A stretch of DNA of 64,000 nt from positions 124,001 through 188,000 of the forward strand of contig JAUJYZ010000403.1 of assembly GCA_033675265.1 (NCBI GenBank), given 5' to 3'. The notes below the pieces were generated by a model that ran no database searches, had not been told where the DNA came from, and was given only the letters and a program-made list of their open reading frames with translations. This DNA comes from Actinostola sp. cb2023 (taxonomy: Eukaryota; Cnidaria; Anthozoa; Actiniaria; Actinostolidae). A program made the position numbers and the translations under genes. Shown here in pieces: positions 1 through 64,000 of the stretch (positions within the stretch are counted from its first letter, which is position 1; every line of letters starts with the position of its first letter).

Positions 1-240
1 AACTATGTGTAGGTTTTAAGAAGACATACTGTATGGCAATTAAATCAGAATTTAGAAAATTTACAAAGCCACAAAACTGCATGATGTACATTATTTAGTC
101 TTTCTCAAATCTGTTGGGAGAAAATTTACTGCATCGTGGCTGGTAATGCTGATACACAACTCTATCATGTCTGAAACATCTATTGCAATTACTCCGGCTG
201 TTTCCTTTCTGACTGGTATGATATGAGGAATTGTTGCTCC
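1..240. repeat. segmental repeat, copy 1
   Basis: This segment recurs in direct orientation at 5571-5779 with small internal deletions and insertions. On the minus strand both copies stay open in one frame from near the 240 end to a TAA at 91-93, reading ATIPHIIPV..KETAGVIAID and ending LPTDLRKTK. Copy 2 replaces the middle of that peptide without losing frame. It could be a duplicated terminal exon of an unrecognised gene, but other frames are also partly open, so coding status is uncertain. Confidence 0.7.
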
Positions 241-1060
241 AGTGATATAACCTTTGCCCGCTGAACATCTGAATGTGTGAGAGGTGTTACTATGGCTAGA
301 TAATAAGGCACTTTACAATCACAAGACTGGCCACAAAACACTGGATTTGGACATTCTCGATAAACCTTATCTATAATAAACCTTACCCTAAAAATTATCT
401 ATAATTATTTATGATGTCTCCATCTGTGTGTTATGAATGAATTGGCAATCTTATATTTATTGCCGCAACATTCATAAACAAAACCTTGATGTTTATCAAC
501 AAAAAAAAACGAACATAGCTCTTCCAGGAAAGATCTTCTTCTTCTTTTTTAGTAAAAGTGCCTTGTACTTTTCTTGCTCGCTTTTGATACCGTTTGCCGG
601 TCCTCTTTAGTAATTTGTTCAAACGTTGGTCCTGAAGGGTTGCTTCCTGTTACACAACAGAAATATAAAATTTAGCTGATGTGCATTTGTTAATCATAGA
701 TTCATTCTCAAATGATCAACTAGTATATCCTATATAGCATCTATGTATGGTATCCTCGTATCTAAAGATGCTACTCGCTAGTGGCAAGGTTGTTGGCGTT
801 CCAATCACTACTCGTATTCTGCCTATATATACAATTTTATGTATTTGTTTATATTTATTTATCTCTTTTTTATTGGGGGGGGGGGGGGGGAGATATCCTC
901 GATAGGGTTAACCTCTGGTATCTCCTTTCATTGTATTAATGTATTTAATATTAATGAATAAAACCATCATTATACGACAAGGATAATGGGATTTTTATGA
1001 CGTGGCAGTTTAGTTCTTAGCTTGCCATGTTCCCAACTATCTGATGTAATTGTAAGAGAG
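241..1060. other. no gene recognised; 16-G run
   Basis: No supported gene. Minus-strand 241-375 can be read as a Cys-rich peptide (ECPNPVFCGQSCDC) between AG and GT dinucleotides, which is only suggestive. A run of 16 G occupies 875-890. Confidence 0.5.
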
Positions 1061-2802: not shown

Positions 2803-3318
2803 TCGCACGACTCTTACGCTTCTCTCGTGCTTAGTAGCCTCCCGCGTGCATCCATAACTCGATGGACGCACGCTGAACATTGACTATTCCTTCATTCGAG
2901 ACCCTGATGAATGCTTCCAGCAATGATAAAGTTGTATTTGACATGATAAATTTGTAGAAAACGAACACTTACCTTGAATCGATGCAAAATACGAGGGAAA
3001 TGACAAGACTCAACAAAATAAATAAATATTTAATTAATTAATTAAATATTTTACTCAGTAGATCCACAAAGTGGCTATTCTTCTACTGGCACTCACTACC
3101 ACTACATTCAATATTTTATACCAACAGGCCAAACAGGGTACTTGAGCAAATCTCTTTCCTTATAGGAAAATGAAGAACCATAGCAAATCCATTTCAATTC
3201 ACTTGCAGCAATTCATTTTCTATCAGAAACTACTAGTTAAATTTGTTGAGAGACGTGACATTTACTGTAGTGTTAATCTCTGTTTAGCTGGACAACGTTA
3301 ATGACATTCACTGTATAT
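2803..3318. other. no gene; 3' flank of the methyltransferase-like gene
   Basis: AT-rich, with a TAATTAATTAAT stretch near 3030. No ORF or structure of note. It would contain the 3' UTR of the minus-strand gene ending at 3319. Confidence 0.45.
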
Positions 3319-3508
3319 TTATATAATATCTGGCTCATTTTCTGAATCCATAATCAGGCTCAGCTCTGCATCATCTACTTCCTCCTCATTGTCTCTGTAA
3401 CACGGTGTGGCCAGTAGTTTTTTTGGATATTCGATACTTTTTCTCCAATATCTTCTGCAACCATGACGCAGTGGCGCTTACTCATAAGACTTTCAATCAT
3501 AGTATTTT
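3319..3508 (-). CDS. methyltransferase-like gene, terminal exon
   Basis: Minus-strand exon after a TATTTAG acceptor. It reads TMIESLMSKRHCVMVAEDIG then EKVSNIQK. This matches the stretch that follows motif I in beta-class N4/N6 DNA methyltransferases, where a Gly-Thr-Thr helix is followed by an R-x-C-V-x-V strand and an acidic residue. After a run of seven T (plus strand, about 3418-3424) the frame must shift by one to continue into an acidic tail, CYRDNEEEVDDAELSLIMDS, ending at TAA 3319-3321. The tail codes well to its stop, so the run is probably miscounted or truly mutated. Joined by inference to the exon at 4078-4266. Confidence 0.6.
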
Positions 3509-3680
3509 CTAAATATTATGAAATTAAAATTTTATCAATACATAATTGTTTTTAAATAAATAAAATACTCGGGACACAGCGCCGGTGAAAAGCGAGTGCC
3601 ACCCTGTATTTAATACGAATATTCAGAGAAAATAAAAGTGGTAGTCCAATCACATAAAAGTAGAATAACATAAACAACCC

Positions 3681-4078
3681 TGCATTTAAATTTGCATTTT
3701 TGCATATTATAATTTTTTTGCAAAATCTGTTCATAAGTAAGACTGCATATCTTTCTACTGAAAAGGACCATTCAAGTTTTTGTTTATAGGCTAAAACACA
3801 TACATTTATGTGTCCTGAGATATAAATGTACTATATGTGTAGGCTAAAACACATAAATGTATGTGTCCCGAGATATATATCAAAAAATGTGCTATTTGTC
3901 TGCAAGATTGAATAAATGAAAAACTACAAAACAGTAATTTTGAACATTTGTACAAGATGGAAATTAAACTCCAAATAATGAAATTGCCCTTTTTGAATGA
4001 GCAGACCTTCTAAATTCTATAAACATGTGCAATATGGAAATAATTTTAGCAAAATGCAAAAATGCAAATTTAAATGCA
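3681..4078. mobile_element. MITE-like insertion with TGCATTTAAATTTGCA ends
   Basis: TGCATTTAAATTTGCATTTT at 3681 is inverted at 4055-4078. The right arm begins exactly where the methyltransferase motif I exon stops being recognisable (DADCGN), so it may have inserted into that exon or lie at its splice edge. Confidence 0.55.
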
Positions 4079-4266
4079 TTCCCACAATCAGCATCAAACA
4101 TTGTGTCTCCCTCAGCGCTCAGATGATTGATCAGGAAACGCACTAGCTTCCTTGGTAGTCTCAAACAATTTTCATTTGCGTAGGAAAACACATTTGAAGC
4201 ATCTTCCTCTTTTTGGAATTGTATATTTTCTTGGGTTACAATCCCTCTTTTATTCCAGTGACAGAT
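4078..4266 (-). CDS. beta-class N4/N6 DNA methyltransferase exon (motifs X and I)
   Basis: A 189-nt open exon on the minus strand with a pyrimidine-rich acceptor (CCTCTTTAG). It reads ICHWNKRGIVTQEN, then NVFSYANENCLRLPRKLVRF and LINHLSAEGDTMFDADCGN. P-R-K-L-V-x-F-L-I followed by E-G-D-x-M-F-D-A-D-C-G is the order seen in beta-class amino-methyltransferases. There a Q-K-P helix precedes the AdoMet-binding motif I, usually V-L-D-P-F-x-G-S-G. The first acidic residue and the Gly are present; the Pro-Phe is replaced by Ala-Asp. The catalytic D/S/N-P-P-Y/W/F motif IV should lie upstream, between 4266 and 6490, and I did not find it. Likely the same gene as the ParB-like exons. Confidence 0.6.
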
Positions 4267-5570
4267 CTAAAGAGGCTGGATTGACTGGCATAGTTTGTAG
4301 CCTAAAAAAGGAAAATTTCAACTGAACCACTGCACAGGTATATAGTTCCGATCGAAACTAACCTCCAACGCGAAGTTATAAACATATGTTAATGAAAAGC
4401 AAACACCGGCGTGCGATTGGAGATAACGCAAAACAAACGCATAGCAAACCCTGCAGATTTTTTGCGTTTTTTTTAGTAGCGTTTACTAAATGAACGCAAA
4501 GCAAGCCCAAAGCAAACTGTTCTATTCTATTCTAAACTCTAATGGATTTCATGTTCGAAAGCATTCAACATCGTTATTAAATTCAGTACTTCAAGTTTAC
4601 CGTAAATGTACAAAATAATGCACACACAAAATACACAAAATGAAACACACTTCAGCAAACTGAAAGCGAGCAAAATTAGCCAAAACTAAAAGCGATTTCT
4701 GTGTCGAAATCTCATTGCCAGAGGACAGACTAGACACTTGACGCTGAGATCTGTCACGTTACGTCACACAAGGAAACCGCTAATCAGATGACAAGGGAGT
4801 AATGGTGGATCGTAGTGATGGCTTCGCAAAGTTTGCTCTTCAAAGTCCGAAAAGTTAAATATACCAGTCGAAGATCTATAAAATATTTACATAATTGAGA
4901 AATTGCAATCTAATCCATCCAAATATATAAATATGACAATTCAGAACCAGAAATTTACCTTTGTAATCTACATATTCATTTCCGTTCGTTCGACCTTTGA
5001 CTCGGGGTTTGTTTACTTTGTTCTTCTCGAGCGCGCGTTTGTTCCAAAACAACACAACTACTCATTATGTAAAATGAACTCATTAATACATTGTCAGTGT
5101 AGTTCATTAGGAAAAAAAACCCTTGACAGCTGTTCTAAATCTGATACAAAATAGCCTGCATAGCCAGGCTCTTGGCTAGATACAACATAACTACATGATA
5201 TAATGCACACTGCATATTCTGCATGCTCTATGAGAGTACACAGCACGCACGCGCAGATAGTCAAACATTTTTGAAACGAACATAATTGAAAACTTGCCTT
5301 GAAATTATAATTGTATTTTATAAAAGAAATAGAAAACTCTGCAGCTGTGCTCTATCGAGTTCACATGCAGTCCCATGCTCCATTTTTATAATAATTTATA
5401 AATGCAATTGAAGGTGTCATTCCATGTTCTCCTCATAATGATTCAATTTCAAAGAGAAATTTGGGAGTTGATCAAATATCACTTACCTGTACTTTCTTCT
5501 TTACACAGACCAATCCAATGAAAGACAATTGTGATCAATGAAGCTTTAATTTTTGCTCATAAAACAGAAA
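4267..5570. other. intron or intergenic; no gene recognised
   Basis: On the minus strand this lies between the ParB-like and methyltransferase-like exons. It includes a dispersed repeat near 5150-5260 that resembles 10620-10710 (CTCTATGAGAG..ACAGCACGC type). I found no methyltransferase motif IV here. Confidence 0.45.
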
Positions 5571-5779
5571 AACTATGTGTAGGTTTTAAGAAGACATACT
5601 GTATGGAAAATTTACAAAGCCACAAAACTGCATGATGTACATTATTTAGTCTTTCTCAAATCTGTTGGGAGAAAGACACAAAATTTACTACATCGTGGCT
5701 CTATTATGTCTGAAACATCTATTGCAATTACTCCGGCTGTTTCCTTTTCGACTGGTATGATATGAGGAATTGTTGCTCC
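5571..5779. repeat. segmental repeat, copy 2
   Basis: Direct, slightly rearranged copy of 1-240. It lacks the TAAATCAGAATT and GGTAATGCTGATACACA stretches of copy 1 and carries an extra GACACA. The minus-strand frame ending LPTDLRKTK is kept. Confidence 0.75.
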
Positions 5780-6490
5780 AAAATAATTGCTGTATAAAAA
5801 ATGCAGTGTGTAGATATTTTATTACTTTTTCAATTGATTTATTCTTAGACGTTTATCAATGATGCAAAGTGAAACAGCGAACAGATTGCTTTAAATATCC
5901 ATTGGTATATTCACTGGTATATGCCAATTTTGTTCCTACATGTTATCCCTCTTTTCTGTTTCCTTCCCTTTTCTTGGCTTTCTTTTTATTGTATCTGTTG
6001 TTGTTGGTGGTGGTGGTTTTGTGTGTGTGTACTTTCAAATTGTTTCTGATCTTCTCTCTTCTGTTTTCAAGTTACAAAACAAAAGGAAAATTTGGAATAA
6101 CAAAACAAGCTACTCCTGAATGCGAGGCTAAGTTCAATTTTATGTATTTTTTAAGATCGGTCAATTGCAGGATGCCGAGACAAAAGTATGCCAACACACA
6201 TTCAGTAACGGCTGTCATTTCATTTTACATTTTGCTATTTTCTATTCACAATATTTGGACAACGTTTATGAAAATAGAAAAGATTGAGTAGAAAAAATAT
6301 AAATATCAAATTGTTCGGCGGGCTTTGATAAGCGTGATCGATCATGATAAGATCCGTGTCGATGCTTTCCATGATAATCGTTATGGAAAAGTGATTGCAA
6401 TGCGAGTGATGAAACAAACTGATTTATAGAAAGACGAAATACCAGAATGTGCCACGGATTTGTCGTGTGGCGAAACGAAAAATATTTAAC
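5780..6490. other. no gene recognised on either strand
   Basis: The plus-strand open frame at 5869-6291 is driven by a T/G-rich tract at 5950-6060 and looks non-coding. Any continuation of the ParB-like gene should cross this interval on the minus strand. An acceptor-like CTATAAATCAG ending near 6420 (minus) is followed by a short open frame I cannot identify. Confidence 0.4.
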
Positions 6491-8571
6491 TTGTCTTTGG
6501 ATACGTACATCGTCTGGCAGGCTATCTTCCATGCCTGTGTTGATGGAGGCGTGTCATCTAGGATGATGTTCTTCCCTAAGTAAGTGTAGAGCCACTCTCT
6601 ACATGAGTGGACTCTGGTCATCCAGGGTGTGTTCATGCTTCCCACGTTGAAAACGTTATGCATGGCCGCCAATCTCCTGATTTCCTGGTCCGAGAGCTGG
6701 TTGTCATAAATAATTACCCAGACCTTTTCCAATTCTTGTTTGTGTACATCGCTGATCATCCTTACCTGAGAGAGATAAATCGTTCATTGAATAAAACATT
6801 CTGCAGTCGTGGGGCTGAATTATTATTTTTCAATTATTATTACGTGTTGAGATAATTTTAAATGCATAAATGTATATAATAATTCGAAACTATATCCACA
6901 ATGACAAAATTTGCAGCATGGTGGATGAATCAATTCTTAAACCTGTTCGTCTTTATTTTTGGTAGTAAGTGGATTCTGTTATGCCTTAGGTTATAAGTGC
7001 ATGTGGCACGTGCTTGTAAAGAGATTCGAAAATGTGTGCCGGTTGTTACTGGCCACAATCTGATTGATTAACTTTTAACACAGATTTTCTCGTCTTTCAA
7101 ACAAAGTTCCTATGTCTAGAATTAAAATGTTTGATGAGATTTAGCAGAGAAATCAGGATCATATCAATGTCGGAACAAACTCCTATGACAAAACTTGGGC
7201 TGCGATGCAGGCTAATGGACAAGTGTGATCTCACTTTTATAATTACCTTTTTGTAGGCAGCTTGTCGGTGACACCCACCAATTATCGTGATTCTGCAGCC
7301 TTTCAGAATTTGCCGGCGAGATGTTATGTCTTCTTTGCTGACATCAGCTATGCCGACCCACGCTTGGAGAGTCTTTGCTAGAGTTGGAGTTTTCTCCAGA
7401 GTTTCAGCGATTTCATTGACGTGGTCAGGATTCACTTCCCTGTCCAGCCACGCTTCTGGGCATACGTCAGCCAGAGAGTCTACACTGAGGTGGAGCTGGC
7501 CTAAAGAAATCATACAGAGAGAAGAACTTTCAATGATCACTGATATTTTATAGTTTATAGTTTATTTATAATTATATGGCCATCGTTAAACAATAATTTT
7601 ATAAAACTTTTATGAAACTTTTATGAAATCTGTAAATTGAAATATTAATACGTAATTAATAAAAGCTTTGCAAAAAAAGAAACACTGAGAAACACTATAC
7701 TTGATTTTATCGGCGATCAGTTTATTGCAACCACAAATCGCCTGTGTAAACTAAGCGGCGATAAAATTGCAGCCAAATCGCTGCAATTTCGAACATGCTC
7801 GAAATTTTGGCATATACATAGCAGAAATTGACAATTCAAAGCACTGGAGTTTGTAGGTCCAGATCTCAAGCAGCGTCGAGGAGCGCTGGTGCAAGTTGTG
7901 TGTATTCTACTTACCAATATAGTGACTGTCGATTTTTTCGTCGATGTCAGTTGGTCTTTTCTTGTCGTTTTTATTCGGCGATGGCAAGTCAACTGCATCG
8001 ACCTTAAGCTTGCTCCATCCTGCGGAGGCTCTCTTCAACTTGGTCTTCATGGCTGAAGCCTGGCTGACTGGGGATGTCCATGGCAGTTCAGGTTCTGGTG
8101 CGACGTCGCTGCCTGCGGCTGCCGGTTTCATCAAGTTCTTGAGCGCTACACAGAATTCCGCAGCAGACAACGCTAGTGGACAGCACAGCTTTAAAGAATG
8201 TCATTTCAAGGTCCAGCTTCGCGAGATCAAAGCGTATAGCCTTTTTCCACTTGGGGCATTTGGAACGTCGAAGGTAATCTGTGTGGTAGAATGTATTATT
8301 CACTTAATTATTGTTATAGTTCCACCGAGATAATGGCCTCCAATAGATAAACGATTAGTTGAACTTAAATATTATAAAGAACGTTACTTACCAGAACACA
8401 ACCTTGGTAAGACTTCATTGAATACGGTTTGACGTCCTCTACGTTTTGGGTTAAATACTCGTTCCTCGTTTTAAATCTCATATCTTTCATCTTAACAAAG
8501 ACGGCTTCTTCCGATTCCACGTGCTTGAAGCACCACTGCCCCTCTGGAGCAACCTCGACAGACTTTGCCAT
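6491..8571 (-). CDS. ParB-like domain protein, multi-exon, N-terminal part
   Basis: Four exons: 8392-8571 (60 codons from MAKSVEVAPEGQW), 7915-8278, 7247-7500 and about 6491-6765. Donors are GTAAGT, GTAAGT and GTAATT; acceptors are CACACAG, TTCTTTAG and TCTCTCAG. Phases 0, 1 and 0 agree at the three junctions. Exons 3-4 read ADVCPEAWLDREVNPDHVNE, ITIIGGCHRQAAYKK, then VWVIIYDNQLSDQEIRRLAA. This is the ParB/Srx fold order: a VNPDHVxEIAE helix, a GG-x-HR-x-AA box (GHxR in bacterial ParB) and LSDxE followed by LAAxHN. Known members bind or cleave DNA or hydrolyse nucleotides, and phage versions are fused to DNA methylases. Exon 2 has one in-frame TGA after WTLK; the frame is otherwise consistent, so CGA-to-TGA decay or an error is possible. 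The final donor is uncertain. Confidence 0.75.
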
Positions 8572-8659
8572 TAATTGAAAATTGAACGTATGTAAGGAGT
8601 TTGATGTGATTCGATGTAGCCGATTCGATACAGTATGATTGCATACTGAAAAACCCTTG

Positions 8660-8668
8660 CTTTTATAG
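8660..8668 (-). promoter_or_regulatory. TATA box of the ParB-like gene
   Basis: The minus strand reads GGCTATAAAAGCAAGG about 90 nt upstream of the chosen ATG at 8571. A focused start near 8630 would leave a 5' UTR of about 60 nt. This supports 8571 as the start rather than upstream in-frame ATGs. Confidence 0.6.
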
Positions 8669-8945
8669 CCGAAGTTCAGCTGAAACGATGATGTCGTTTC
8701 CGATAAAAAACTATCGGTGACAAACCACTGCGTGATGATTCTAAAAACGATAGGACTACAGCTTGTAAAATTCATCCAGGGTACTTTCCTTTTCCCTTCC
8801 CCAGAGCCACTACACAGGCTAGTAAAATTTCGAACAGCAATTTTTAAAAGATCATTTCTAGTATTTATCCCAAATACAGTGTATGATATTGTTCTTCCGG
8901 TTTCAAATCTCGAATTTACACTCGGTCACGATGCCAGTATGACTG
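8669..8945. other. upstream region of the ParB-like gene
   Basis: No gene. Contains palindromic ATCGTTTTTAGAATC-like and GATGATGTCGTTTCC stretches but no clear element. Confidence 0.4.
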
Positions 8946-9128
8946 GATCATACGTCATGATCGACTATTGTTAGGCTCAGGAATACGTATGACCAACTCT
9001 TACAGACTGGGTCATACGTCATGAACGACTATTGTTAGGCTCAGGAATACGTATGACCCAGTGTCAATGTAGGTCATACGTCACGATCGACTACAGTTAG
9101 AATCTGTCAGCAGTTTCGTATGACTGTA
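8946..9128. repeat. 63-bp tandem repeat, three copies
   Basis: GGTCATACGTCATGAtCGAC recurs at 8949, 9013 and 9075, each followed by ATTGTTAGGCTCAGGAATAC or a diverged form and CGTATGAC. Each unit holds TACGTCA, a CRE-like half palindrome. Confidence 0.85.
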
Positions 9129-9637
9129 CTGGATTACCGGTGTATTGCAATTTGAGAAACAGTAGTCACACTGAAAGGTCAAAGCAGCACGGTTTAGTTG
9201 GAAGTACTGTATGATAAATCGCCAAGACGTTCAAAGGGACTTTCTTCTTCATTCCTGGCAAATGTGCGAACAAAATGAAGTCTTCAATGCTCAAAGGCTT
9301 TGCTTATTCGAGTTTTAAAGCTTGGGAACGAATGTTCGACTTCAATATGGACAGAAGCCCGGACAGAAGTCGTAAACAATAATTTTGGCGCCAAATCAGT
9401 CATAGAAGACCGATCGATAGCACCGAAGAAAACCAAGAAATCCTGGATCAATTGTCCACTAAAAGTGAGTATAATTTAAAGCTTCTTGTATGTACTCTAT
9501 TTGTAACCACTGAATCAACTGCTGAATACGTTGAAGAAGTTTTAATGACTAAACCAGAATTCACATTTGGCGCCGACTGCCGGCGATTCATGTTTATATT
9601 CGCTTGAGAATTATTGTTTTTAAATAAATGAATTATC
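9129..9637. other. no gene recognised
   Basis: No credible ORF, RNA gene or repeat. Confidence 0.45.
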
Positions 9638-10115
9638 AAATCTGCAAGTATCATAACGTTATTAAATCAGTTTGCAAGTATCATAACGTTATGAATCTGC
9701 AAGTATCTTAACGTTATGAAATGTGCAAGTATCATAACGTTATGAAATCTGCAAGTATCATAACGTTATGAAATCTGCTAGTATCATAACGTTATGAAAT
9801 CTGCTAGTATCATAACGTTATGAAATCTATCTGCAAGTATCATAACGTTATGAAATCTGCTAGTCTCATAACGTTATGAAATCTGCTATCTCATAACGTT
9901 ATGAAATCTGTAAGTATCATAACGTTATGAAATCTATCTGCAAGTATCATAAAGTTATGAAATCTGCTAGTCTCATAACGTTATGAAATCTGCAAGTACA
10001 GTATCATAACGTTATGAAATCTGCAAGTATCATAACGTTATGAAATCTGTAAGTATCATAACGTTATGAAATCTGTTTGCAAGTATCATAACGTTATGAA
10101 ATCAGTCTGGAAGTC
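9638..10115. repeat. 26-bp minisatellite with palindromic CATAACGTTATG core
   Basis: About 18 copies of CTGCAAGTATCATAACGTTA plus TGAAAT. Copies vary at C/T of the CTGCAAG/CTGCTAG segment, but CATAACGTTATG is almost invariant. Confidence 0.95.
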
Positions 10116-11452
10116 TCATTTATGGAGCTTTTCAAGGAATTGAATTAGTGTTGTTTGAAAAAAAGCAAAATATGGTTATTTTGTATTGTATTGACTACCA
10201 TAATGAAATAAAAAACATATTTTTACCAAATTCAACAATATTTTTTTTATTCATATTTATCAGAATTTTCAATATTTCAAAAAGAACTTTAAGTAATGAT
10301 TTTTTCTGTTTTTCATTGATAATGTAATCATATTTGGACACTTTTGGGATAGTGCAAAAATGCAAAAATAGACTGAGACTTGTTTTAGCTTAGTACTATG
10401 TTTTTAAAATTACACAGGTGATTAGCAAAACGCACGCTCTGATTGGTCAATAATTAGGTCTTATTAACCGAGCGGGATGTCTGTACAGGAAAATCTTGAC
10501 AGAGGTCGTGAAAGTACAGACCGAAAGTATAGCGCTCGCGCGCGCTCTGAAATCAATCGGAATTTCAAATTGTTTTATTTGAATTTGCAGTGACTATGTT
10601 ATAAAAGAATTATAAAATAACTATGATATAACGCGCGCTCTGATTGGCCAAATTAAAGGATGTGTATTCCGCGTGCACTATGAGAGCAAACAGCACACCT
10701 GCAGATATTAAATGTAAATTAGAATAATGTTACTCTTTTATGCTGTCACTACCTGCATGAAATATAACATACCTAAAAAACTATTCCCAAGGTTTGCTCA
10801 GTTTGCTGGGACGGAATTGAACACGACACGCTATGTGTTGGATAAAATATTTTGGCTATGTGCCTGGACACACAGCCGCTTTAATAATCATAAAATTAAT
10901 GATTAAACTTTACAATGAAAATAGAAATAATGGCCCTTCCCAGCAAAGGTGAGGGCAATAATCCGCTAACAAAAGGAAGTTATACAAATGAGGAGGCTAC
11001 AAAGAATCAATGTAAGGGAGGCGGTGGGTAACATTGGACAGTGTAGAAACCTGGTTTGTGCTGTATGGACGTTAGGACCAAAAGCACATGGTGTGCCAAT
11101 GCCTAGAGGGTTAACACTATATCCTAATTCACCACACCCCCTATTGATTATCTTTGATATGACGTAATCAATTCAGAATTAAACATTACCGGAAGAACAA
11201 CATAAAACCTTTATTGACTAGTCAATAATCCCTTTAAATGTCTCTGTGCAATTTTACTAAAACAATTATTTGCGAATTATTTTAATTGTTAAATATTAAA
11301 GTCATTTGTAATATGCATGTCTTACTGTACACCGGCCTGTCCACTTGTTTGTTTTGGAGGACCTTCTTAAAACCTGATACAGCAATTTTTTGTTCAAGCA
11401 CTAACTTTGAACAAGCTGATTGTTGTTTTGGGTGATCTAAACTGTAACTGCA
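10116..11452. other. dispersed-repeat rich, no gene
   Basis: 10420-10560 carries CGCACGCTCTGATTGGTCAA with GTCTGTACAGGAAAATCTTG, which looks like a dispersed non-coding repeat. 10625-10710 repeats the 5150-5260 family. No ORF of note. Confidence 0.55.
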
Positions 11453-12266: not shown

Positions 12267-13105
12267 CAGGTGACTGCTTGTGCTCTTTATATCTTAATGC
12301 AGCGCGCTTACCTACACTACAAGGAAAACGTTCCTGCACATGAAGAAAGTCTCACCTTCAGTGTTTGGCAAGAGATGCAAGAGGTTGAACACCCACAATT
12401 CCATTAATGGTTGCTCACCTTACGATTTCAATTGACCATTCTTATTTTCTTAAGGTCATTACGCGAAGGTAACTTCCAGCTTTACAAAGAGGCTTGCACG
12501 TCACTTGCTCCATATGGTTTTTCTCTTTAAATCACCCGAATTACGCAAGATGGCTTCCGATCCATATCCGTGATATGGAAGGTCTCGAGAAGGTTGCCCC
12601 GTCAGTTGCCACAGAATTCAAGAAAGGTAATTTTGTGGTGCAGAAATCTCACCGTCAATTCTCTGCCATTCCGATCGATCAACCACATGAGCAGAACAAT
12701 AAAATCATCAAAGGGGACGGAGGAGCCATTGTCCTGACGAAAAATTCATCTCAATTGTTACGATGGATGGTTTCTGGTCCAGAAATATCCAGAGTTGTCC
12801 TCGAGTCCTCACAGGAAATTTTCACCCAATTTCCAAGAGGTCCGGAAACTCGTCACCACGAACAGGCAAGGTCGACTCAAGAGAGATTTCACAAGCAAGT
12901 GAAAGCTCTCTGTAGCACAATTGAAGAAATGGGAAACCCATTATTCCTAGAGCCCAGCAAGGTTTTGCTGGTGCTTGACTCTCGTGATATTGCTGATCCA
13001 GGCGTCACTCAAACTGTGAGAACTGTAGAGAAAATAGGGAAGCAGCAGTACGAAGAATTTGTGAAAGAGCGCCTTGACAAGCGTTCAACGCCTCTCATGC
13101 AGTGA
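12267..13105 (+). pseudogene. repetitive-gene piece 1 (N-terminal part)
   Basis: Reads VTACALYILMQRAYLHYKEN, then after a TAA at about 12404 continues as LTLRFQLTILIFLRSLREGN and FQLYKEACTSLAPYG. A frameshift at a T/C run near 12520 leads into FFSLNHPNYARWLPIHIRDM, IDQPHEQNNKIIKGDGGAIV and VLDSRDIADPGVTQTVRTVE. I recognise the architecture (NYARWLPxHxRDM, DQxHEQNN, KGDGGAxxL) from a high-copy family of uncharacterised genes in aquatic invertebrates. It ends within LDKRSTP at the insertion of the TIR transposon. Function unknown; the stop and shift show decay or error. Confidence 0.75.
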
Positions 13106-13301: not shown

Positions 13302-13811
13302 ATGGCGGCCGATGCGAGAAGGGTTTTAGCAGATTATGTGGAATTTCCTCGCCAGTTTGGTGTGTTTCATGGATGGAATAATGTGAATTCGATGAGAAGG
13401 TGAGTTATAATATAATACATAGTTCATGTGGGGCTTTGATTCAGTAGATGTATGTTAATAAATCGTTCTTTTATCGCTCGGATGCATGCTTGTTTACATT
13501 ATTTTGTACACTCGCAAATAATTTGAAGGATGAATTCAACAGTTTTAAATCTTATTTTAATGTTATTAATTAATACGTTGGGTATATATACAACTTAATA
13601 TGATATAGATATGATTGTACTTGAATACATTTCAATTATATTTACATTGCATTTGCCGTGTTTAATAACGCAAAATATGAATTTACAGTGATGGGAATCT
13701 TTGTAAAATATCAAATGATTAACTATATACAGAGAGAGTACATTTGAGATCTACAGTCTGATTTTCCATTCCTTGAGTAGAGTTCCAACGTATTTTAATT
13801 TTTTCATATAA
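13302..13811 (+). CDS. possible two-exon small protein at the transposon's left end
   Basis: ATG at 13302 in AAACATGGCGG context opens 98 nt (MAADARRVLADYVEFPRQFG) to a strong AAG|GTGAGT donor at 13399. The next acceptor, TATATACAG at 13732, continues in phase to a TAA at 13811, for about 58 residues. Exon 2 lies antisense to the 3' end of the transposon's main gene, which makes it doubtful; exon 1 alone is convincing as a start exon. Function unknown. Confidence 0.35.
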
Positions 13812-16800
13812 CCAGAGGCCACATGGCTGTTTTTCAATTCAACCAGTGTAATCATTTTAAAGTCGTTGTTGATGTAGTGATCTGTTTCCCAGTCGTTTAG
13901 TTTTTTTTTCAGAATAGTTTTCTCAGCTAGAATTCTTGTTTGAATCACTGCCAATTTTTCATTGTAAATTTTCACAAGATCTACCCGGCGTGGGGTCTGT
14001 TTTAATGTGTGACGAGCCAAGTCAAATTGTCTAACTTCTTCAGTACATCCAAGGACAAATTCAACTGTTTTTCCTAGGCGGGTCTTTAGGACATTTAAAT
14101 TGTTTTCATGGATTTTGGAGGTTTCTGGAATTGTTTCTTGAGGAAGGGAGGTTGTTGGCGTGATATTGTTGAGCAAGGCTTGGCTTTCTGGTAAAGTGTT
14201 ATTGTGTACTTGTACAGTAGGTGTTGTACATGTAGCTGTTGGAATAGGGTCGTCTAACAGAGCTTCAGGACTTGCAAAGTCAAGTTGAACATCATCAATT
14301 TCGTCTACCAAATTTACATCTATTACTTGTTCATCATCATCTTCATCGCATTCAGTGTCATTCTCTATATGTATTTGCTGCTCAGTGTGGGTAGTGTGGG
14401 TAGAGGGAGGTTCTGCTTGATCAAGAGTTGAAGGGAAAAGGTCATTAATGTCTGTTACATTACTGCCATGTTGCCTTTGACAATTGGTTAGAAATCTTTC
14501 AACTTTGCCATTTGCAGAATTTGTGAGGTAGATATATTGTGCAGGGAGCTTGACTTGTGACTCAATGCACTTGTCCCAACAACAGGACAGATATTTTTCT
14601 TCTTTTTTAAGATTACTTGATCTGAAGTGATGTAATACTGGGCCCTGATCCCTTGTGTTTGGCTCTGTAACAGAATCAAAGAACTCTATCGTTTCCCCAT
14701 CACTTTTTCCACCAAACTCCTTCTCCGGGCAAAAGGAAATCGCTAATTCTTTCTAAATGGGCCTGATACCATTTGGAATACTTAGGGCTCTCTAAGATAT
14801 ACATAGGAAATACTGAATTAGGGAACTTGGGCGTAGCAGCTGAAAGCTTGGACACATCATTGGACTGCCTTGATGTTGTTGAAGAGTCGTCAAAGTTGCC
14901 AATTTTTTCTTCGGCTTGCATTCTGATGAATATATTTCCAATGATGTGTCCTGGTCTGTTACATGATGTTATTTGTGTAATGCTTTTTATTGTACTAAAC
15001 ATTCTTTCTTCGTCTTCAGCATTTGTAGATGGCCCTGAAATAAGACGAAGCTGAAGTGGTGCATGAGAGACAAGATTGTGTAAGTACTTCCCATAGAGTT
15101 TTCTAGAATTTAACGTGATTGGAGAGGAACCAAACTGAATATTACACATTACAAAATGAAGAAAGCTAACATTATGGTAGCGGAGAATGAGTCGAGGGCA
15201 TCGCTTGATATCATTAGAGTAGAGGATAGCTTGCATTTCTGATAGAGTGTCTAGAAGAGATTGTAGTGTTTCTGAAACATGGCCTCTTAGTTGGTTTGAA
15301 AATATAACAAGGGCAGCTCTGTGATCTGTTGCTCTTTTGACTTCTTTGTCACCAAGAGTAAGCTGGAGAATCTCATTAAACTTATTTTTTTGTTCTTTTG
15401 TAAGATGGCTTGGTATTTCTTCTAGGATATTGCCAATATGATTAGAAATATCATGCATTGGCTCACATGGGAGAGCTTCATATGATGCAATGTTTAGATT
15501 GGCCATTTTCTCTGTGGGATTAAGGAAGAGTAATGCAGGGACCCTCTGTACACCCTTTAGCTCACTTTTAAGCTCTTTTTCGTAGTCTGCTTTGTTGTTG
15601 GTTTCATTGAAGAGAAGTTTTCTTGCTCTCAATTCTGCTTGTATGTCCTTTTTCTTGAGATGCTCAAATGGTTTTGGCATGTGTTTCTTAGACCCTGATC
15701 TTCCTTGAGGCCCATTTAATACAAGATTTTGTCGGTCAGATAGGGATACATGTTTACATCTAAAGAAGTGATCCAGATCATCACTTAAGATAGCATGCAT
15801 CCCACATGCTGAACAGAAATAGTGACCACCCTTCTGTTGTCCAACTTCAAAAGCAACAGCAGGGCCATCACCTTTAAAGAATCGCATGGTATCAGTTATT
15901 GTAATTCCAGGGCTGATTTCTATGCTGTTATGTAGATCTTGTAAACATTCACACCTGGTCTCACAATATGCCAACTGTTCAACATCTGTACTCCTACATC
16001 TACCAACAATGTAGATTTCAGGCCTCTCTACCTCTGCCTGGACATCAATAGTGAAGCCAGTTAATCTGTGGTACTCATCCGGGGTTAAGTATAGGGCAGG
16101 GTCATACACAGCAGACACCATAAACACCAGATGGCCATGGTTTGCCACTGTTGAGTGATCATGCCAAACAAGTAAATTTCGTGACCTTTCAAATGCCTTT
16201 AACTTCTTACGCATTAATGTGAGGCCCTCCTCATCTTCAAATTCTCCTAGCTCTTCAAGCCTTTGTGCAACTTGAATTCTTTGCATTTCATCATAATAGT
16301 TATCTTCATGTTGTCTCATGTAATTCCTATGTTTTTCTATCATCCGTTTCCTGATTTCTTCAAGAGGTTGCTTTCTTCCCTCAACAACAAATTCTGTCTT
16401 AACAATGTTTCCCTTCTTCTTTATCTATAACCAGCTTTTCATATTTTCTGGGAACAACCAGCTCACCAACCGTGTATTCACCCCTCTGTATTTTCAACTT
16501 GAGCATATCATTAAGGATGTTTTTTGTTGGTTTGTGGAACTGGTATAGATATCTCACCTAAAAAAATATATGAGAAATTATTTTTATTACAGTATGTTTA
16601 TTTAGTTAGCACTTTTTCATGGATATATTGTATACACTCTAGCTACTATCTCATTGTACATAATTAATCACTAATTTATTTTGTAAACATTTAAGCATAA
16701 ATTATTACTGAATTTTAATTTTAAACATACCTCCCATTCCACGCAGTTTTTTCCTTCTGATTCTTTTCCCTTCCTTTCCGGGACGTTTGTAAAAGCGGTG

Positions 16801-18336
16801 GAAATTAAGTCCCTCGTTGACCACAAATTCTTGAGCAATTTGGCCTCCATTCTTGGCAATCTGTCCAGCTTTGTTTGTTATTTTGTACTTTTTTGCCAAA
16901 GCACTCCAATTAACCTTCATTCCATCTTCATATCCTTCTACTTCCTCTCTAAGTCCTATTTTGTCCCAATTCATGTTTCCAAAAGCTCCAGCATGATTCC
17001 TTTTATTGTTAGTTGAGGCTCTGTCTTTTGCTGATTGCTTTGTTTCAAAGCCAGAAGCAATTCTGTCTCGTTGTCTTGCTGAAAAAGACTGTCTAGATCC
17101 TAAGCATCTGTGTAGAATAATGTATAAAATTACATTGAGTTCACTACTGGTCACAAATAGCAGGGGGTTAGCTGGGGCTTCATATTAGTATATATAGAAA
17201 TTTAATTATATTAGTAATTGAATAATAATACTAATAATACTCTAATTAGTATTTATAGGAATTATTTATATAGCATTTAGAATTTTATATACATAGTTTT
17301 AGTTTTAGTTTCATTGCTTTGTACACGACCCCACAAGCTTTTCAGCTTTAATTTTAATTGTGTATAAATAAAGTTATTGTATTGTATTGTATGAACAATA
17401 GAACATTCTGTACTTAGCTTGCCCATGTGTGTGACTCTTATCATTTAGGAGCTCAAACCATAATAAAGGTCCTCCACCCCCACCCCCTGTTAAAGTTTTG
17501 ATCACCTTTTTATTATTTTCCTCAAGTTATATTCTACTGTACTAATTTATAAATGTATATATGTAGCATAAAAATAGTATATGGATTCATACCTTTCTAC
17601 AGATGATTTTATCCATTCAGTCTCTATATTTTCTTTATTTTTTCTCAGAATATCTCTGCGTGCTGTCTTTTTTTCATTTTTGCTTTCTCTTATTTGTAGA
17701 TTTGTCTCTGTGACTCCAGCCAGTGCTTCACCAAAGGATACTCCACATATGGTTTGAAAAGCTGGATCAATCTTATTGTAAAGCTCTTTGACAGTCTGTC
17801 TGATCGCAGTTTTATTGGGGGCTTGTAATACTTGACTGGCGGCTAATTTTGAACTGTCATTTGCTACTGTGAAAGGATTGTCTTTAGATCGTTTCTTAAG
17901 AAGTGGTGACCTCACTGGAAAAAGTGATTGCACTTTAGAATAACTTTGATGGCATCCCTTGCAATCAAATAGAGTGTGCTCTCTTCTCTTGGCATTTGAT
18001 AAATTAGCCCAATTTTGAGCAGAAAATTTATCAAAATACTCCTTCATCTCCAAGCTTTTCCTTCCACATTTACTCCATTTGATAACATGCATGTGAAGTG
18101 CTGGATGCTTCTTGTTGAATTCGCTTAAGGGCAATTTGCAATTTGAAGCTTTCATTGTCCACTGGGGAATGGAACATTTCTTGAAATATGCTATACCGGT
18201 ACTGCATCAATCGAGCGCCAAACTTCGCATTGCTTTCATTACCATCTTTCTTTAGAAGTTTGGATTGTCTTCCAGCGTGAATAGCTCCCATTTTGCCAAA
18301 CCCACAGGTCTTAGGATCGAGGAAAGTTCGATACAT
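13751..18336 (-). CDS. large multi-exon protein of the TIR transposon (putative transposase)
   Basis: Exons: 17593-18336 (needs a small shift or intron near 18160), 16731-17107, and 13751-16557. The 17593/17107 junction is clean (ACAG acceptor, GTATGA donor, phase 2). The protein begins MYRTFLDPKTCGFGKMGAIH. It carries VNWSALAKKYKITNKAGQIA, an HYFCSACGMH..DHFFRCKH zinc-knuckle-like stretch, KPFEHLKKKDIQAELRARKL, a YEALPCEPMHDISNHIGNIL block, and NAEDEERMFSTIKSIT..NR. An acidic, Ser/Thr-rich C-terminus ends in a basic coiled-coil-like tail (EWKIRL). Three one-base shifts sit in homopolymers at about 16520-16525, 16408-16425 and 14704-14708. Each side continues as good protein. I recall similar uncharacterised proteins from cnidarians and sponges; the superfamily is not recognised. 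Confidence 0.7.
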
Positions 18337-19496: not shown

Positions 19497-20748
19497 AACA
19501 AGTCAGTAACACTCTTCAGCACTTATTCACAAAAGAAACAAAACAAATCCAATGACAAAATGAAGATAATTTCACTCAAAGATGATTGTTCCCTCTTTTC
19601 CCGTCTTTACATTTCATATCAAGTTCGGGATGGCAACTTGGATGAATTTTTGCCCATTAGAACCAGGGGTGTCCGCCATCTTTATCCCATTTTGGGAAAC
19701 TCAGGTCAGGTACAAAATCAGATCTGTTGTCATGCTTAGAAAATGTGACGGAATCACAAGCAGAAATGCCACCTGTTCAAGTTTCAATGTTTGACGGAGC
19801 GGCTTTGGTTAACATGATAAAGCCAGGAGCTTCAAAAACATTTGCAAATTACAGCGATGATGTATTTCTTACCTACGTAAAAGGCCAGCTTCGTAGTGTA
19901 CAAAGAATAGATGTTGTGTGGGACATGTACCTCCCAAACAGCCTAAAAGCCACTACTCGATAAAAGAGAGGAAGCGGAGTGCGCAGACGTGTCAAGCCTG
20001 ACACAATAATTCCTGGAAATTGGACAGAATTCTTACGAAATGATGACAACAAAGACGAACTGTTTAACTTCCTTGCTGAAGAGTTGATGACAATTGCTCC
20101 TGAATATGCAGAAATTATCTCGACGAAAGGTGAGGTAGTGCTCTGCAACAAGTCCCGAGAAGACATCAGTCAAGTCTTTCCCCATGCAAACAAGAGGAAG
20201 CTGACACGAGGCTCAACTGCACGCTGCCGATGATGCTAAGTGTGGATTCACAAAGGCGATGATTCGTACAGTGGACACTGACGTTGTTGTTATAGCAATT
20301 TCATTTTTTGCACAACTTCGGCTGTCAGAACTTTGGATATCATTTGGTGTCGGTAAATATCTACGATATTTGCCAATCCATCGTATATCAAGAGAGATTG
20401 GTCAAGATAAGTCGAAGGCGTTGCTTGCATTTCATGCATTTACTGGCTGTGACCAAACATCTACATTTGCAAGTAAAGGCAAGAAAACAGCCTGGGACGT
20501 TTGGAGTACACTCAACGAGTTAACACCTATGTTTAAAGACTTAGGCAATTGTCCAACATTGTCTACTGTGAACGATTCCATGGCCATGCTTGAACGCTAT
20601 GTCATTCTTATGTACGACCGTGCTAGTACATCCTCAAGCGTAAATGAAGCACGCAAAGTTCTCTTTACACGGAAAGGAAGACTGATCGACAATATACCAC
20701 CTCCTGCTGATGCATTACTCCAGCATACAAAAAGAGCTGCCTATCATG
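19497..20748 (+). pseudogene. repetitive-gene piece 2 (DTDVVV domain)
   Basis: Continues piece 1: ENKSVTLFSTYSQKKQNKSN, DDCSLFSRLYISYQVRDGNL, then after a shift LENVTESQAEMPPVQVSMFD, GAALVNMIKPGASKTFANYS and VQRIDVVWDMYLPNSLK. An in-frame TAA at about 19961 precedes GVRRRVKPDTIIPGNWTEFL. Shifts near 20190 and 20250 precede MIRTVDTDVVVIAISFFAQL, LWISFGVGKYLRYLPIHRIS, LLAFHAFTGCDQTSTFASKG and ERYVILMYDRASTSSSVNEA. The V-D-T-D-V-V-V strand and F-H-A-F-T-G-C-D motif suggest a PIN/FEN-like acidic nuclease core, but that is inference. Broken by stops and shifts. Confidence 0.75.
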
Positions 20749-21414
20749 TTAAGGCTTGACCAGATTCATTATATTAGACCCCCCGCGTGGATTTCAGGTT
20801 TTCTATTATAAGTCAGGAAGTATGTATCGCTTTTTGATAAAAACTTTTGGGTGAAACAAAATGTATGTCCTTCATAAATTAGTATGCATAATTACACGAT
20901 CACGTGATCAATGACGTCACAATAAAGGAAAAAATGACCAAAAAAAAAACGCGCCGCTCATAATTAGCTAGAAGCTGAAACTAAATATGGGTAATTGGTT
21001 GCCATAGGATGCGAATAAAGCCCACGTTTCGATTGGATGGTTTCAATGAGTGGTTAAGGCTATATTAAGATGGGTTTGTAGTCAAGTGACCTGTTTTAGG
21101 CAATATCGCCTTACCAATAAAAATATGTCAACCAAATGAGACGGATTATTGTTAGAGACAATGATACAAATACATTAAATGTGATAAATATTATACGCCA
21201 TTGAAACTCGTCAGCGCATTTCCAGAAAACCATTTTTGGCCATAATCTACAAAATCTGATCACGTGACATGACAATCCCAAAATACACAGTTGAATATTC
21301 TTCCTTTTACTGAACTCTACTGATGGACCGAATTTGAAGAAATTCTACCAAGGTTTCAGCGAGAAAAGCTAAAAAATGAATTTGACTAATATTTGGCCAA
21401 ATGCCAAGCCTTAA
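20749..21414. mobile_element. 666-bp MITE with TTAAGGCTTG ends, CATG duplication
   Basis: TTAAGGCTTG at 20749 and CAAGCCTTAA ending at 21414 are inverted. CATG flanks both sides (20745-20748 and 21415-21418). Host coding sequence resumes immediately afterwards in piece 3. The interior is non-coding and holds ATCACGTGATC-type palindromes. Confidence 0.8.
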
Positions 21415-21763: not shown

Positions 21764-23666
21764 TTATTTAATCAACGAGTCAGCGATTAATAATTTTTTC
21801 ATTCTGCTTTTAAACATATTTTTTGAAGCAGAGGTTCTTATTTGAACTGAAAGATTATTCCAAATTGAAGTTCCTTTTGATTTAATAAAAAATCGACCAT
21901 AGTTAGTTCTGTATCTAATCATGTGTAGGTTTTTTGATGCTCTAGTATTATGATGATATAAATTTACATTTGTTTGGAAGAAATTGCTAAACATAGAAGG
22001 TAAATTATTTGAATGATAATCATACATAAATAAACTTGAAACAAAGTCATTAATTTGAAAGATATTGAGTAGCTTTAGATTTTGAAATAATGGTAATGAC
22101 GAAGCTCTATAATTGGCAAAATTGATGAATCTTACTGCTTTTTTTTTGTAATTTAAAAATTTGTTCTAATCTAGAAGGATAATTACAACCCCAAACGAGG
22201 TTTCCATAATATAGATAAGGGTAAATCAGGGAATTATATAGAATTACCAGAGTGTTTTTGTTGACAAAATATCGAGCTTTGCATAAAATGCCTATGCTTT
22301 TAGCAACTTTATTACTAACGTAATTTATATGATGTTTCCATGTTAAGTTTTGATCCAGTATGATACCTAAGAATTTGGTGGTTTTAACGTTTGAAACTTG
22401 ATGGGATTGCAAACTAATGTTCATATTTTTACTTGTTGGTTTATGTTTTGATTTAAAAACCATATAATTTGTCTTTTTTAAGTTTAGGGTTAACTGATTA
22501 TACTCAAGCCACGTTGCAATGTTTGATAATTCATTTTTGATGAGGGATTCAAGTTCATTTAAATCCTTTCCCGAATAAAACAAGTTAGTATCATCTGCAA
22601 AAAGAATAAATGAAGTCTTTGAGCTGCTTGTGCAAATATCGTTTATGTATAGCAGGAATAAAAGTGGACCTAGTATAGAGCCCTGAGGTACTCCGCATTT
22701 TATAGTTAATTCATCTGATGTAGTATCATTAATTTTTACTATTTGTTTTCGATTGCTTAAATAGCTTTCAAACCATTTTTGAGAATTACCTCTTATTCCA
22801 TAGTGATATAATTTATTTAGTAAAATGTTATGGTTAACAGTATCAAATGCTTTTGATAGATCCAAAAAAATTCCCACTGCATATTTATTGTGTTCAATAG
22901 AATCTACGATTTTTTCTGTTAGATCAACAATTGCATGAATAGTTGATCTATTCTTTCTAAATCCATATTGATGACTGGTTAAGATGTGTAATTTGTCAAT
23001 ATATTTTATTAGTCTATTATACATTAATTTTTCTAGAATTTTAGAAAAACATGGTAAAACTGAAATAGGTCTGTAATTAGTTAGGTCATTAACATCCCCT
23101 GCTTTAAAAACAGGTGTTACAATTGCTATTTTAAGTTTGTCAGGTACAATACCAGTTGTAAATGAAAGGTTAAATATATAAGATAATACCGAGCTTATTT
23201 TTGAAGCAGCGTGTTTAATAACTTTAGGATGAATTTGATCAATACCACTACTTTTGTTTACGTTTATTTTTCCCAACTCTTTTTCTACTTCACTTGGTGT
23301 GATTTCACTTAAAAACATGGAATTTAAGTAATCACCAGTTAAATAATTATTGTACATATCGTTACTCTTATCAAATTTTTCCGCAAGTTTAGGACCTATG
23401 TTTACAAAAAAATCATTGAAATTGTTTGCTATGTCACTAGGGTCAGTCAGTTCTTTTTGGTCAACTACAAATTTTGACGGAAAAGAGTGCGTATTATTTT
23501 TTCGGTTCAGCAATTCATTTAGAGTCCGCCATGTTTCTTTTGTATTACCTTGGTCACTTGTCAGTTTTTTATGAAAATACAGTTTCTTGGCAATTCGAAT
23601 TGTATGATTCAATTTATTCCGATATATTTTATATTTCGATTCATTGGTTTGCGTAGGTTTACTCAA
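21764..23666 (-). pseudogene. LINE reverse transcriptase and C-terminal region
   Basis: RT motifs in order: YRPISVLPCFSKILEKLMYN, HQYGFRKNRSTIHAIVDLTE, FLDLSKAFDTVNHNILL, GVPQGSILGPLLFLLYINDI and the catalytic FADDTNLF box. TKFLGIILDQNLTWKHH and LYYGNLVWGCNY follow. The frame breaks at a nine-T run (plus strand 22139-22147). The downstream frame (21764-22110) resumes at once with the usual LINE tail, NLHMIRYRTNYGRFFIKSKG and SIWNNLS. RT copies the element's RNA at the nicked target. Confidence 0.92.
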
Positions 23667-23688
23667 AAATTTCTTATATAATCTGTGC

Positions 23689-24774
23689 TTATTTCTTTAT
23701 AGATTTTACGATTCCGTTAGAAATCCATGGATTATCCGACCTATTCAAATGTGCCTTACTTACTTTCTTTAGTGGGAAGTGTTTATCATATAAATGAGTG
23801 AAGATTTTTAGGAATTCGTTATATAGTTCATTAGGGTCATTAAACTTTTTTAAATTGTTCCAATTCACTTTATCAAGAGCTTCCGAAAAAGCTTTTAAAT
23901 TGTCTTCAGTGATTCTTCTTCGTAATGTAACGTTGTTATCATTCTTAACTTTAATTGGGTTATTGTGGTCGATCAAGAATATTGGTAAGTGATCAGATAA
24001 GTCATTCAATAGAATTCCACTAAAATAATTAGTGGGTTTGTTAGTAAAAATATTGTCTATCAAAGTGGCTGAAGTATTTGTTATTCTTGTTGGCCTATTT
24101 ATCGTGGGTACTAACATCGAAGATATCATTTGATTAAGAAAATTACTTGAATTATTACAGTGTTTATATTTTAGTAAGTCAATATTAAAATCACCCAGAA
24201 GATAACAAATTTTGCCTTCCTTGTCAATAGCAGTTAACAGATCCGTTAATTTACTATCAAACTCATCGTATTTGTTATTTGGTGCTCTGTAGATCACTCC
24301 AGTAAGTGAATTTTTAGAGTTGGAATTAATGATTTCAATAAAAAGACATTCAGCAATACTAGAATCCATAGTTAAATCGTTTCTCAATTTAAAATCTATA
24401 TTATTTCTTACATACATACAGACACCTCCACCAAGTCTTCCATCTCTATTGACCGTAATCAGTTTATATCCTGGTATGGCATAGTATTCAGTATCATTAT
24501 TGTTAAGCCATGTTTCAGTAAGAGCTATGATTGAGAAGGGATAGTTAAGGAGATTTATGTAATCCAAAAATGAGTCAAATTTGTTTCGCAAACTGCGAAT
24601 GTTGACATGTAATAAAGACATGTTTCCTTTTGATGCTAACCTGTCAACATGATATGTAAATTCATTGCTTAAGTAATATTTGTTTGCTGAAATTTTTACA
24701 GTTGTTAAAGTAATTAGCATCCGGATCATGTTGCATAGTATTATTATTCTTGGTATCATACTGGAACAAATCAA
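23689..24774 (-). pseudogene. LINE APE endonuclease domain
   Basis: Exonuclease-endonuclease-phosphatase fold: LLHVNIRSLRNKFDSFLDYI, a catalytic IIALTETWLNN, GGGVCMYVRN, the central LLGDFNIDLL and a final LSDHLPIFL with the catalytic Asp-His. The frame is lost by one base near 23691, just before the RT part (SIKK / KFLSKPTQ), so endonuclease and RT were one ORF2. It nicks target DNA to prime reverse transcription. Confidence 0.92.
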
Positions 24775-24900
24775 GGATTGAATTTTCAGAAATCATTGCT
24801 AATCATATCAAAACTAGTTCAAAAATTACTATTATTGGTTAATTTAAGAAAAAAAGACTTTAAAGTTATAATTAAGTACATGTTCATTTGTACGTGCTGT

Positions 24901-26120: not shown

Positions 26121-26339
26121 ACTGTCAATCTTAAATGAAACGGCCCAATAACAGAAGGCGCTTAATTGCCAATGTCTCATCCGATTTAAACCTCACACAA
26201 GTTATTTATAATTAACACTCCAACTAGAATCACAGACACCTGTCATTGATGTTATTCTAGTTTCATCACCTTCTCTTGTGTCAAGAGTGACAGTAAATGC
26301 TCCACACTGCCATCTGTCACTTGTGTACATGTTGGCTAA

Positions 26340-27977: not shown

Positions 27978-28054
27978 TTAAAGGAGCCTCTCACAGGTAA
28001 TGCATTTTGCGCCGTATTATTGGTAAGTAGAAATCTGCGAGAGTGCTCCTTTAA
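27978..28054. mobile_element. 69-bp mini-MITE with TTAA target duplication
   Basis: TTAA at 27978-27981 and 28051-28054 flank an insert beginning AGGAGCCTCTC and ending GAGAGTGCTCCT. It splits the satellite unit CACATTAATGCATGATC exactly. TTAA duplication is typical of piggyBac-type elements. Confidence 0.8.
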
Positions 28055-55989: not shown

Positions 55990-56190
55990 AAGTGATGTCA
56001 AATATATAATTGACGACAGAAATAATCACAAACTGAATAAATCATCGTTTTGTTGACAACACAATGCGCAATGAAACTATAATTGACGACAGAAATAATC
56101 ACAAACTGAATAAATCATCGTTTTATTGACAACACAATGCGCAATGAAACTATAATTGACGACAGAAATAATCAGACTGAATAAATCATT
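55990..56190. repeat. 73-bp satellite, small proximal array
   Basis: About 2.5 units of the large array sit between a half copy (ATAAAAAAGTGATGTCAAAT) and the full hairpin MITE, in the TIMELESS intron region. Confidence 0.9.
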
Positions 56191-63900: not shown

Positions 63901-64000
63901 TAATCACAAACTGAATAAATGATCGTTTTGTTGACAACACAATGCGCAATGAAACTATAATTGACGACAGAAATAATCACAAACTGTATAAATCATCGTT
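57961..64000. repeat. 73-bp satellite, more than 80 copies, runs off the window
   Basis: Unit TTGACGACAGAAATAATCAC AAACTGAATAAATCATCGTT TTATTGACAACACAATGCGC AATGAAACTATAA. Variants: ACAG/ACAC, AATAATC/AAGAATC, TCATCG/GTATCG/GTTCG, ATTGAC/GTTGAC/GTCGAC, TGAAAC/TGGAAC. The variant order from about 58100 to 60438 repeats 2336 bp (32 units) later. No ORF. Confidence 0.97.

Follow-up and report, generated by a model that had tools for sequence, protein, structure and literature searches.

We have studied a stretch of 64,000 nt from the genome of the sea anemone Actinostola sp. cb2023, which we will call the window. In its minus strand, where the features of interest lie, an analysis of the letters alone (the original prediction) had placed a single spliced gene which joins a ParB-like domain to a beta-class DNA methyltransferase. 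We find that the locus is a mosaic pseudogene, in which the 5' half comes from one paralogue and the 3' end from a different one. The parent gene family probably descends from a ParB-methylase fusion of phage or bacterial type.

The pieces themselves are genuine. Protein P0001 of the anemone Exaiptasia matches window 6801–6490 at 2e-34 and 4329–4093 at 2e-7 (tblastn), so that the ParB-like and methylase-like pieces represent more than chance. A protein fragment from JGI (P0002) is 98% identical to window 8916–8368, which is exon 1 and its surroundings; a TATAAA is found about 95 bases upstream of this exon. At the 3' end the NEEEVDD tail of protein P0004 aligns at 3390–3358 with E 1.7. The peptides singled out in the original prediction are found in open frames at the minus-strand positions it gave, the limits it set for exon 3 are exact, and exon 4 starts where it was placed. 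All the pieces are listed in Table 1.

Table 1. Exon pieces, blocks and repeats which make up the mosaic locus of the window
Feature	Position	Strand	Observation
Exon 1 (MAKSVEV..., N-terminal module)	8392–8571	minus	open frame, GTAAGT donor; protein P0003 aligns
Exon 2	7915–8278	minus	alignment to P0003 is split between two frames
Exon 3, block A: first half of ParB-like part, with GGCHRQAAY	7247–7500	minus	AG/GT borders
Exon 4, block B: second half of ParB-like part	6490–6765	minus	begins after AG; 90% protein identity to C1316
Methylase-like exon G (motif-X-like region up to the first part of motif I)	4077–4342	minus	81% to C1019
Methylase-like exon H (TMIESLMSKRHCVMV), acidic tail, 3' end	3273–3672	minus	93.5% to C1019
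C1316-type block: 5' half, introns, upstream stretch, 26-bp array	6065–10251	minus	blastn to L035
Filler between the two halves	5083–5780	unassigned	86% to contig C430
Interspersed repeat of about 710 bp	about 4336–5050	minus	85% to C1019, where the tail exon adjoins
MITE-like repeat (miniature inverted-repeat transposable element), inserted at exon G end	3673–4078	unassigned	28-nt terminal inverted repeats, arms 96%; the element bounded by them is 3681–4078

The two halves come from different contigs of the same genome. From 6065 to 9638 the window is 87–94% identical in DNA to contig C1316 (locus L035), introns and upstream DNA included, and the similarity extends at 85% over 9633–10251, through an array of 26-bp repeats. 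C1316 is the best match of this half among the loci which we fetched. The array, at 9633–10119, is rich in TAACGTTA and is retained upstream of both copies. The region 3273–5050, which covers the methylase-like tail (4342–3273), is related to another contig, C1019, with 81–93.5% DNA identity; for 3273–3672 plus 4077–4342 C1019 is the sole match in the genome (among the best 40 of 1185 candidates scored). The proteins agree: in exons A+B the identity with C1316 is 92% and that with C1019 40%, whereas exon G shares 79% with C1019 (over 34 residues), 49% with contig C902 and 32% with C1316. The fetched regions of C1316 and C1019 have no mutual alignment of 80 bases or more. As copies of two different paralogues, both groups of exons do not belong to one gene. 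Two separate genes was an outcome which the original prediction had named as contrary to it; at the level of DNA this is what is found here.

The space between the halves is occupied by repeats. Contig C430, which matches the filler, also matches window 1–369 and 2145–2680. Two stretches, 2381–2576 and 2581–2802, match their own reverse complements at 86% and 83%, and both match C430 as well. An interspersed repeat of about 150 bp at 5211–5361 has dozens of copies in the genome at about 90%. Among the best 40 of 1185 candidates scored, the repeat of about 710 bp (stretch 4339–5045) is found in 14 further places of the genome (78–89%) and the MITE-like repeat in 24 (80–94%). The latter is absent at the C1019 site, where the flanking matches nearly abut in L032 (7052 and 7057). 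The halves of the two paralogues would have been joined around such repeat sequence, giving the mosaic pseudogene.

The window copy does not keep open frames and intact splice sites across all its exons. Exon 2 changes frame relative to P0003 and to C1316, whose exon 2 is open throughout. We considered its in-frame TGA as a recoded codon and rejected the idea: the frame shifts at this place, and C1316 has an open exon. Exon 4 has lost its splice donor, and the middle part of the protein (P0001 residues 150–420) has no credible match anywhere in the window. The exon G piece at 4329–4093 has an in-frame TAG, motif I is interrupted, with the MITE-like repeat sitting at the end of the exon, and the acidic tail of exon H is in a different frame from the preceding exon. 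Frame changes, lost donor, stop, insertion and missing middle exons make this copy a pseudogene, and the claim that both exon groups form one gene has to be abandoned.

The parent family is better preserved elsewhere. A search of the Actinostola genome with protein P0005 gives 57 matches on 23 contigs (best 63 of 82 candidates scored). We fetched regions on 20 of these contigs, the window itself being among them as L040. Of these 20 loci, four (L033, L035, L037 and L041) have the complete set of eight exon blocks, A–H. In L035, the C1316 locus, every block is open with GT/AG borders, including exon 2; L033 has a short block C and stops after it. The exon joins are placed by homology throughout the family, not by RNA. 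Eight homologous proteins are available: three from Exaiptasia, the JGI fragment and four from Actinostola (P0003, P0004, P0006 and P0007, on contigs C906, C1518, C1127 and C391 respectively). The Exaiptasia gene model P0001 has the ParB-like, middle and methylase-like parts together. As read from these models and exon series, the family has a ParB-like part followed by a methylase-like part in one multi-exon animal gene: the order, in a single polypeptide, is found in P0001 and in the C1316 exon series, not in the window copy. The predicted pairing of ParB and beta-class methylase is thus supported for the family (P0001, C1316 and others) and fails for the locus where it was proposed, which is broken and comes from two paralogues.

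Exaiptasia is a laboratory anemone. According to the taxonomy records Exaiptasia diaphana belongs to the Aiptasiidae and Actinostola to the Actinostolidae, both in the Actiniaria. Since P0001 is most like the C1316 type, and P0005 like the C647 type, two branches or more would predate the split of Actinostola and Exaiptasia, as judged from identities rather than from a tree. No coral or Nematostella protein appears among the matches of three protein searches, which require shared 5-residue words and in two cases scored only the best 8,000 candidates or so; this absence is not a proof. Another Exaiptasia protein, P0008 (AIPGENE6470), has a DUF7869 domain (E 5.5e-47) joined to two ParB-like pieces and is probably a merged gene model. 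In the literature on ParB in cnidarians, Aiptasia, sea anemones, eukaryotes and metazoans no title that we retrieved deals with a family of this kind; the papers which came up for cnidarians or Aiptasia were set aside, as the passages checked had only chance word matches.

The methylase-like end was studied in an alignment of nine members. Seven of them match PF01555; the best value, 2.7e-6, rests on an exon join which gave a score above the cut-off and was later judged wrong. We dropped it for a likelier splice, with which the C1019 tail falls just below the cut-off of 26.7 bits (24.8 bits, E 2.4e-5). Taken singly, six of seven tails match PF01555 with E from 1.1e-6 to 0.055, the C1518 type being the exception; the lowest of these values, above the cut-off in score, again depends on the join judged wrong. 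P0001 matches at E 0.1 and the window tail pieces at 0.019–0.08, below the cut-off, while P0004, P0005 and exon H alone give no match. Profile comparison adds to this. In hhalign the family scores 33.9 (probability 34%) with the methylase portions of two phage ParB-methylase fusions, against at most 21.5 for 15 shuffled controls, and the alignment runs through the motif-X-like region and then motif I in the same order. When the whole family profile is compared with the whole fusions the score is 35.8 (8 controls at most 18.8), but the ParB halves do not line up in register, and we use this value for the methylase end alone. In the PDB the four best of 13 rows are beta methylases (2zie, M.RsrI twice and M.MboII) at E 0.24–0.58, not significant alone; the other nine are aminoglycoside kinase, with E about 1. 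Scans of PHROG and NCBIfam find methylase families (E 0.0056 and 0.1), a chlorophyll-pathway methyltransferase (E 0.0019) and otherwise unrelated matches. Taken together, the profiles support well a homology to beta-class methylases.

The conserved regions of methylases are known as motif X, motif I and DPPY. The catalytic motif [DNS]PP[YFW] is absent in all eight aligned members which contain the stretch; the window copy lacks the stretch. FKGFSLVL appears to occupy the position expected for DPPY. Motif I, which should bind S-adenosylmethionine (DPFxGxG), is degenerate in the six of nine members which run through it: DxxxSKDSG in four, LTNNAIVG in C1518 and DADCGNE in the spliced C1019, where the first G is kept. 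The C902 sequence ends at DVNTGN before a likely intron, and P0005 ends before motif I. A GNG pattern in C902 and C1019 was not accepted as motif I: it reads into or across an intron border. A six-frame search of the whole genome with PF01555 gave no match at E 0.1 (3 candidates scored), a result which does not exclude an intact methylase, because it missed the split exons of the family itself. The methylase active site seems to be lost, and the suggestion that the gene could write methylation is unlikely to hold.

The ParB-like part was compared in an alignment of 12 rows. The motif GGxHRxxA[YF] is found in 11 of them. PF02195 matches none of the 12 members, nor three segments and one consensus. 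With a ParB profile hhalign gives 30.6 (probability 28%; 6 shuffled controls 9.0–15.9), and with the phage ParB-methylase fusions 26.8 (probability 15%; 15 shuffled controls at most 14.8); the profile register, GxxR..A and the following strand and helix, is kept along some 100 columns. The best Foldseek match is Spo0J (prob 0.69, E 0.049). Nine of 50 VIA rows are ParB, Noc or Spo0J chains, aligned to the part after the motif; this part also gives designed helical repeats. No VIA row is a methylase: model part 527–660 matches folds such as carboxylase and STAS, and six of these rows rank higher than any ParB row. The structure model of P0004 alone has a predicted local distance difference test (pLDDT) of 35.6. 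In the PDB the best profile rows are abscisic acid receptors, over some 40 residues around GGxHR, at E 0.14; a search with the first family alignment gave two unrelated rows. ParB homology is thus supported by profile comparison and weak fold matches, but not proven. A lack of profile hits, which the original prediction had also named as contrary to it, is found for ParB with plain Pfam, but not with profile-profile comparison, nor for the methylase, with its weak PF01555 matches. The relation of the family to phage ParB and ParB-methylase proteins is in turn supported by profile comparison.

The family is under constraint at the protein level. The ratio of nonsynonymous to synonymous changes (dN/dS), with bootstrap ranges and with stop codons dropped before counting, lies between 0.11 and 0.29 in eight paralogue comparisons. 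For the window it is 0.21 (0.09–0.42) with C1316 in exons A+B and 0.17 (0.04–0.74; 34 codons) with C1019 in exon G. Other pairs give similar values: C1518/C903 0.24 (0.12–0.76) in C+D and 0.24 (0.12–0.57) in E–G; C391/C307 0.29 (0.16–0.45) in A+B and 0.11 (0.04–0.30) in E; C627/C1483 0.23 (0.10–0.58) in A; C391/C1127 0.27 (0–1.1, too few changes). The pair C647/C512 gives 0.32 in D+E, with no range. In six pairs no ratio could be obtained, because dS was saturated in five of them and 0 in the sixth.

Other features are found in the same window. Large open frames of 574, 333, 219 and 159 aa lie in the minus strand at 13754–18206; they resemble one gene or element and have no Pfam match at E 0.1. 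Two open frames in the plus strand, 12473–13102 and 20205–20756, have no convincing Pfam match; a relative of the former (44%) is found beside a family copy in L044 (5995–6279). Frames like those of a retrotransposon without long terminal repeats occupy 21767–24792 in the minus strand, with RVT_1 (4e-39) at 22110–23696 and more frames on either side. There are also tandem arrays: one at 26337–27981 has nested periods of 75, 150 and 389 bp, and a 73-bp repeat (82.6 copies) extends from 57963 to 64000 and past the end of the window, with another array of the same period at 56005–56189.

Several other explanations have to be weighed. One functional gene of unusual form, with exon 4 spliced to the tail across 2 kb, would explain that both exon groups are in the same strand and in the correct order, and that exons A+B are constrained relative to C1316. 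It is very unlikely, given the origin of the halves in two paralogues with no mutual alignment of 80 bases in the fetched regions, the lost donor, the absent middle, the TAG and the MITE-like repeat of exon G and the frame changes of exon 2. Contamination by bacteria or phages, or a recently transferred gene of prophage type, is hardly credible: a domain order reminiscent of phage proteins speaks for it, and against it stand the multi-exon structure, the interspersed repeats of the host genome around it, relatives in two anemone genera and the lack of a close prokaryotic or viral relative. None was confirmed in scans with two peptide patterns each, and a phage tblastn with P0005 gave two weak matches (E 0.1–0.2).

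The family might also have spread by transposition, as an accessory gene carried by a DNA transposon, since its pieces are on 23 contigs, some copies on different contigs are nearly identical, P0008 joins DUF7869 to ParB-like pieces, L044 has the relative mentioned above and L048 a reverse-transcriptase-like stretch. However, copies retain the order of their blocks with introns, the C1316 similarity continues into upstream DNA and the tandem array, and the nearly identical contigs may represent two haplotypes. We examined this origin with six protein queries against the 20 loci, leaving aside terminal repeats shared across copies: the DUF7869 query matched no locus, and we rejected a DUF7869 element as carrier; two of the five window-protein queries matched one locus each outside the window. 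There is little here for the role in a mobile element which the original prediction also suggested, and we judge it quite unlikely. Convergence of the ParB-like part on a short motif, GGxHRxxAY, with only the methylase homology real, would fit the lack of PF02195 matches, the low hhalign probabilities and the abscisic acid receptors around GGxHR. Nevertheless the hhalign values are far above every shuffled control and in the expected register, Spo0J is the top fold match, with ParB, Noc and Spo0J chains past the motif, and the order ParB-then-methylase is that of phage fusions. Convergence appears rather unlikely to us.

We have so far found the family in two sea anemones, and its descent from a ParB-methylase fusion is supported but not proven. 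In this line introns and an N-terminal module would have been added, the methylase would have lost its catalytic motif, and the gene would have multiplied. Most likely the intact members bind DNA and are not catalytic. It is quite possible that living members bind DNA through their ParB-like and helical parts, and that the dead methylase fold serves as a further part which contacts DNA or reads modification. More tentatively, an ancestor of sea anemones could have taken up a phage or bacterial fusion which now has some 20 or more copies, the dead methylase being kept by selection as a folded, DNA-contacting part behind a ParB-like clamp. If so, a prokaryotic DNA-modification protein would have given rise, in an animal, to a system which binds DNA or guards the genome. 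An expanded animal family which has the parts in this order, introns, a dead methylase and constraint on its proteins would show such a protein turned into a non-catalytic DNA binder; Exaiptasia would allow a direct test. The window illustrates how the family decays through mosaic joining of paralogues.

Among known systems, chromosomal and plasmid ParB, Spo0J and Noc share with the family the profile register around GxxR and, by weak fold matches, the helical part; they differ in that the family has no PF02195 match and has GGxHR instead of a GERR-type motif. Nicking or NTPase activity is described, in passages of PMC5512222, for several ParB domains, including that of the Bacillus cereus ParB-methylase, and a passage of PMC3482391 links the motif DGHHR to a predicted ParB active site. 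Some ParB-type activity may be possible in the family, since GGxHR retains H and R. The N4CMT of bdelloid rotifers is, according to the parts of PMC8885841 consulted, an active animal methylase of bacterial origin, likewise a bacterial-type N6_N4 methylase acquired by an animal genome. However, it retains a catalytic SPPY, writes 4mC and has a chromodomain, whereas the anemone family has no PPY-type motif; the term ParB is absent from the main text of that paper. A likeness in architecture is found in the ParB-methylase fusions known from phages and bacteria, for example Psychrobacter phage pOW20-A PSYG_00039 (404 aa), Caudoviricetes ctGfd272 (437 aa) and the Bacillus cereus ParB-methylase, the last from passages of PMC5512222. 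The animal family differs from them by its introns, its N-terminal module, the lack of DPPY and a longer stretch between the two parts (an estimated 190 residues more, by position in P0005). In both cases the ParB-like part comes first and the N6/N4 methylase last, with motif I near the C-terminal end.

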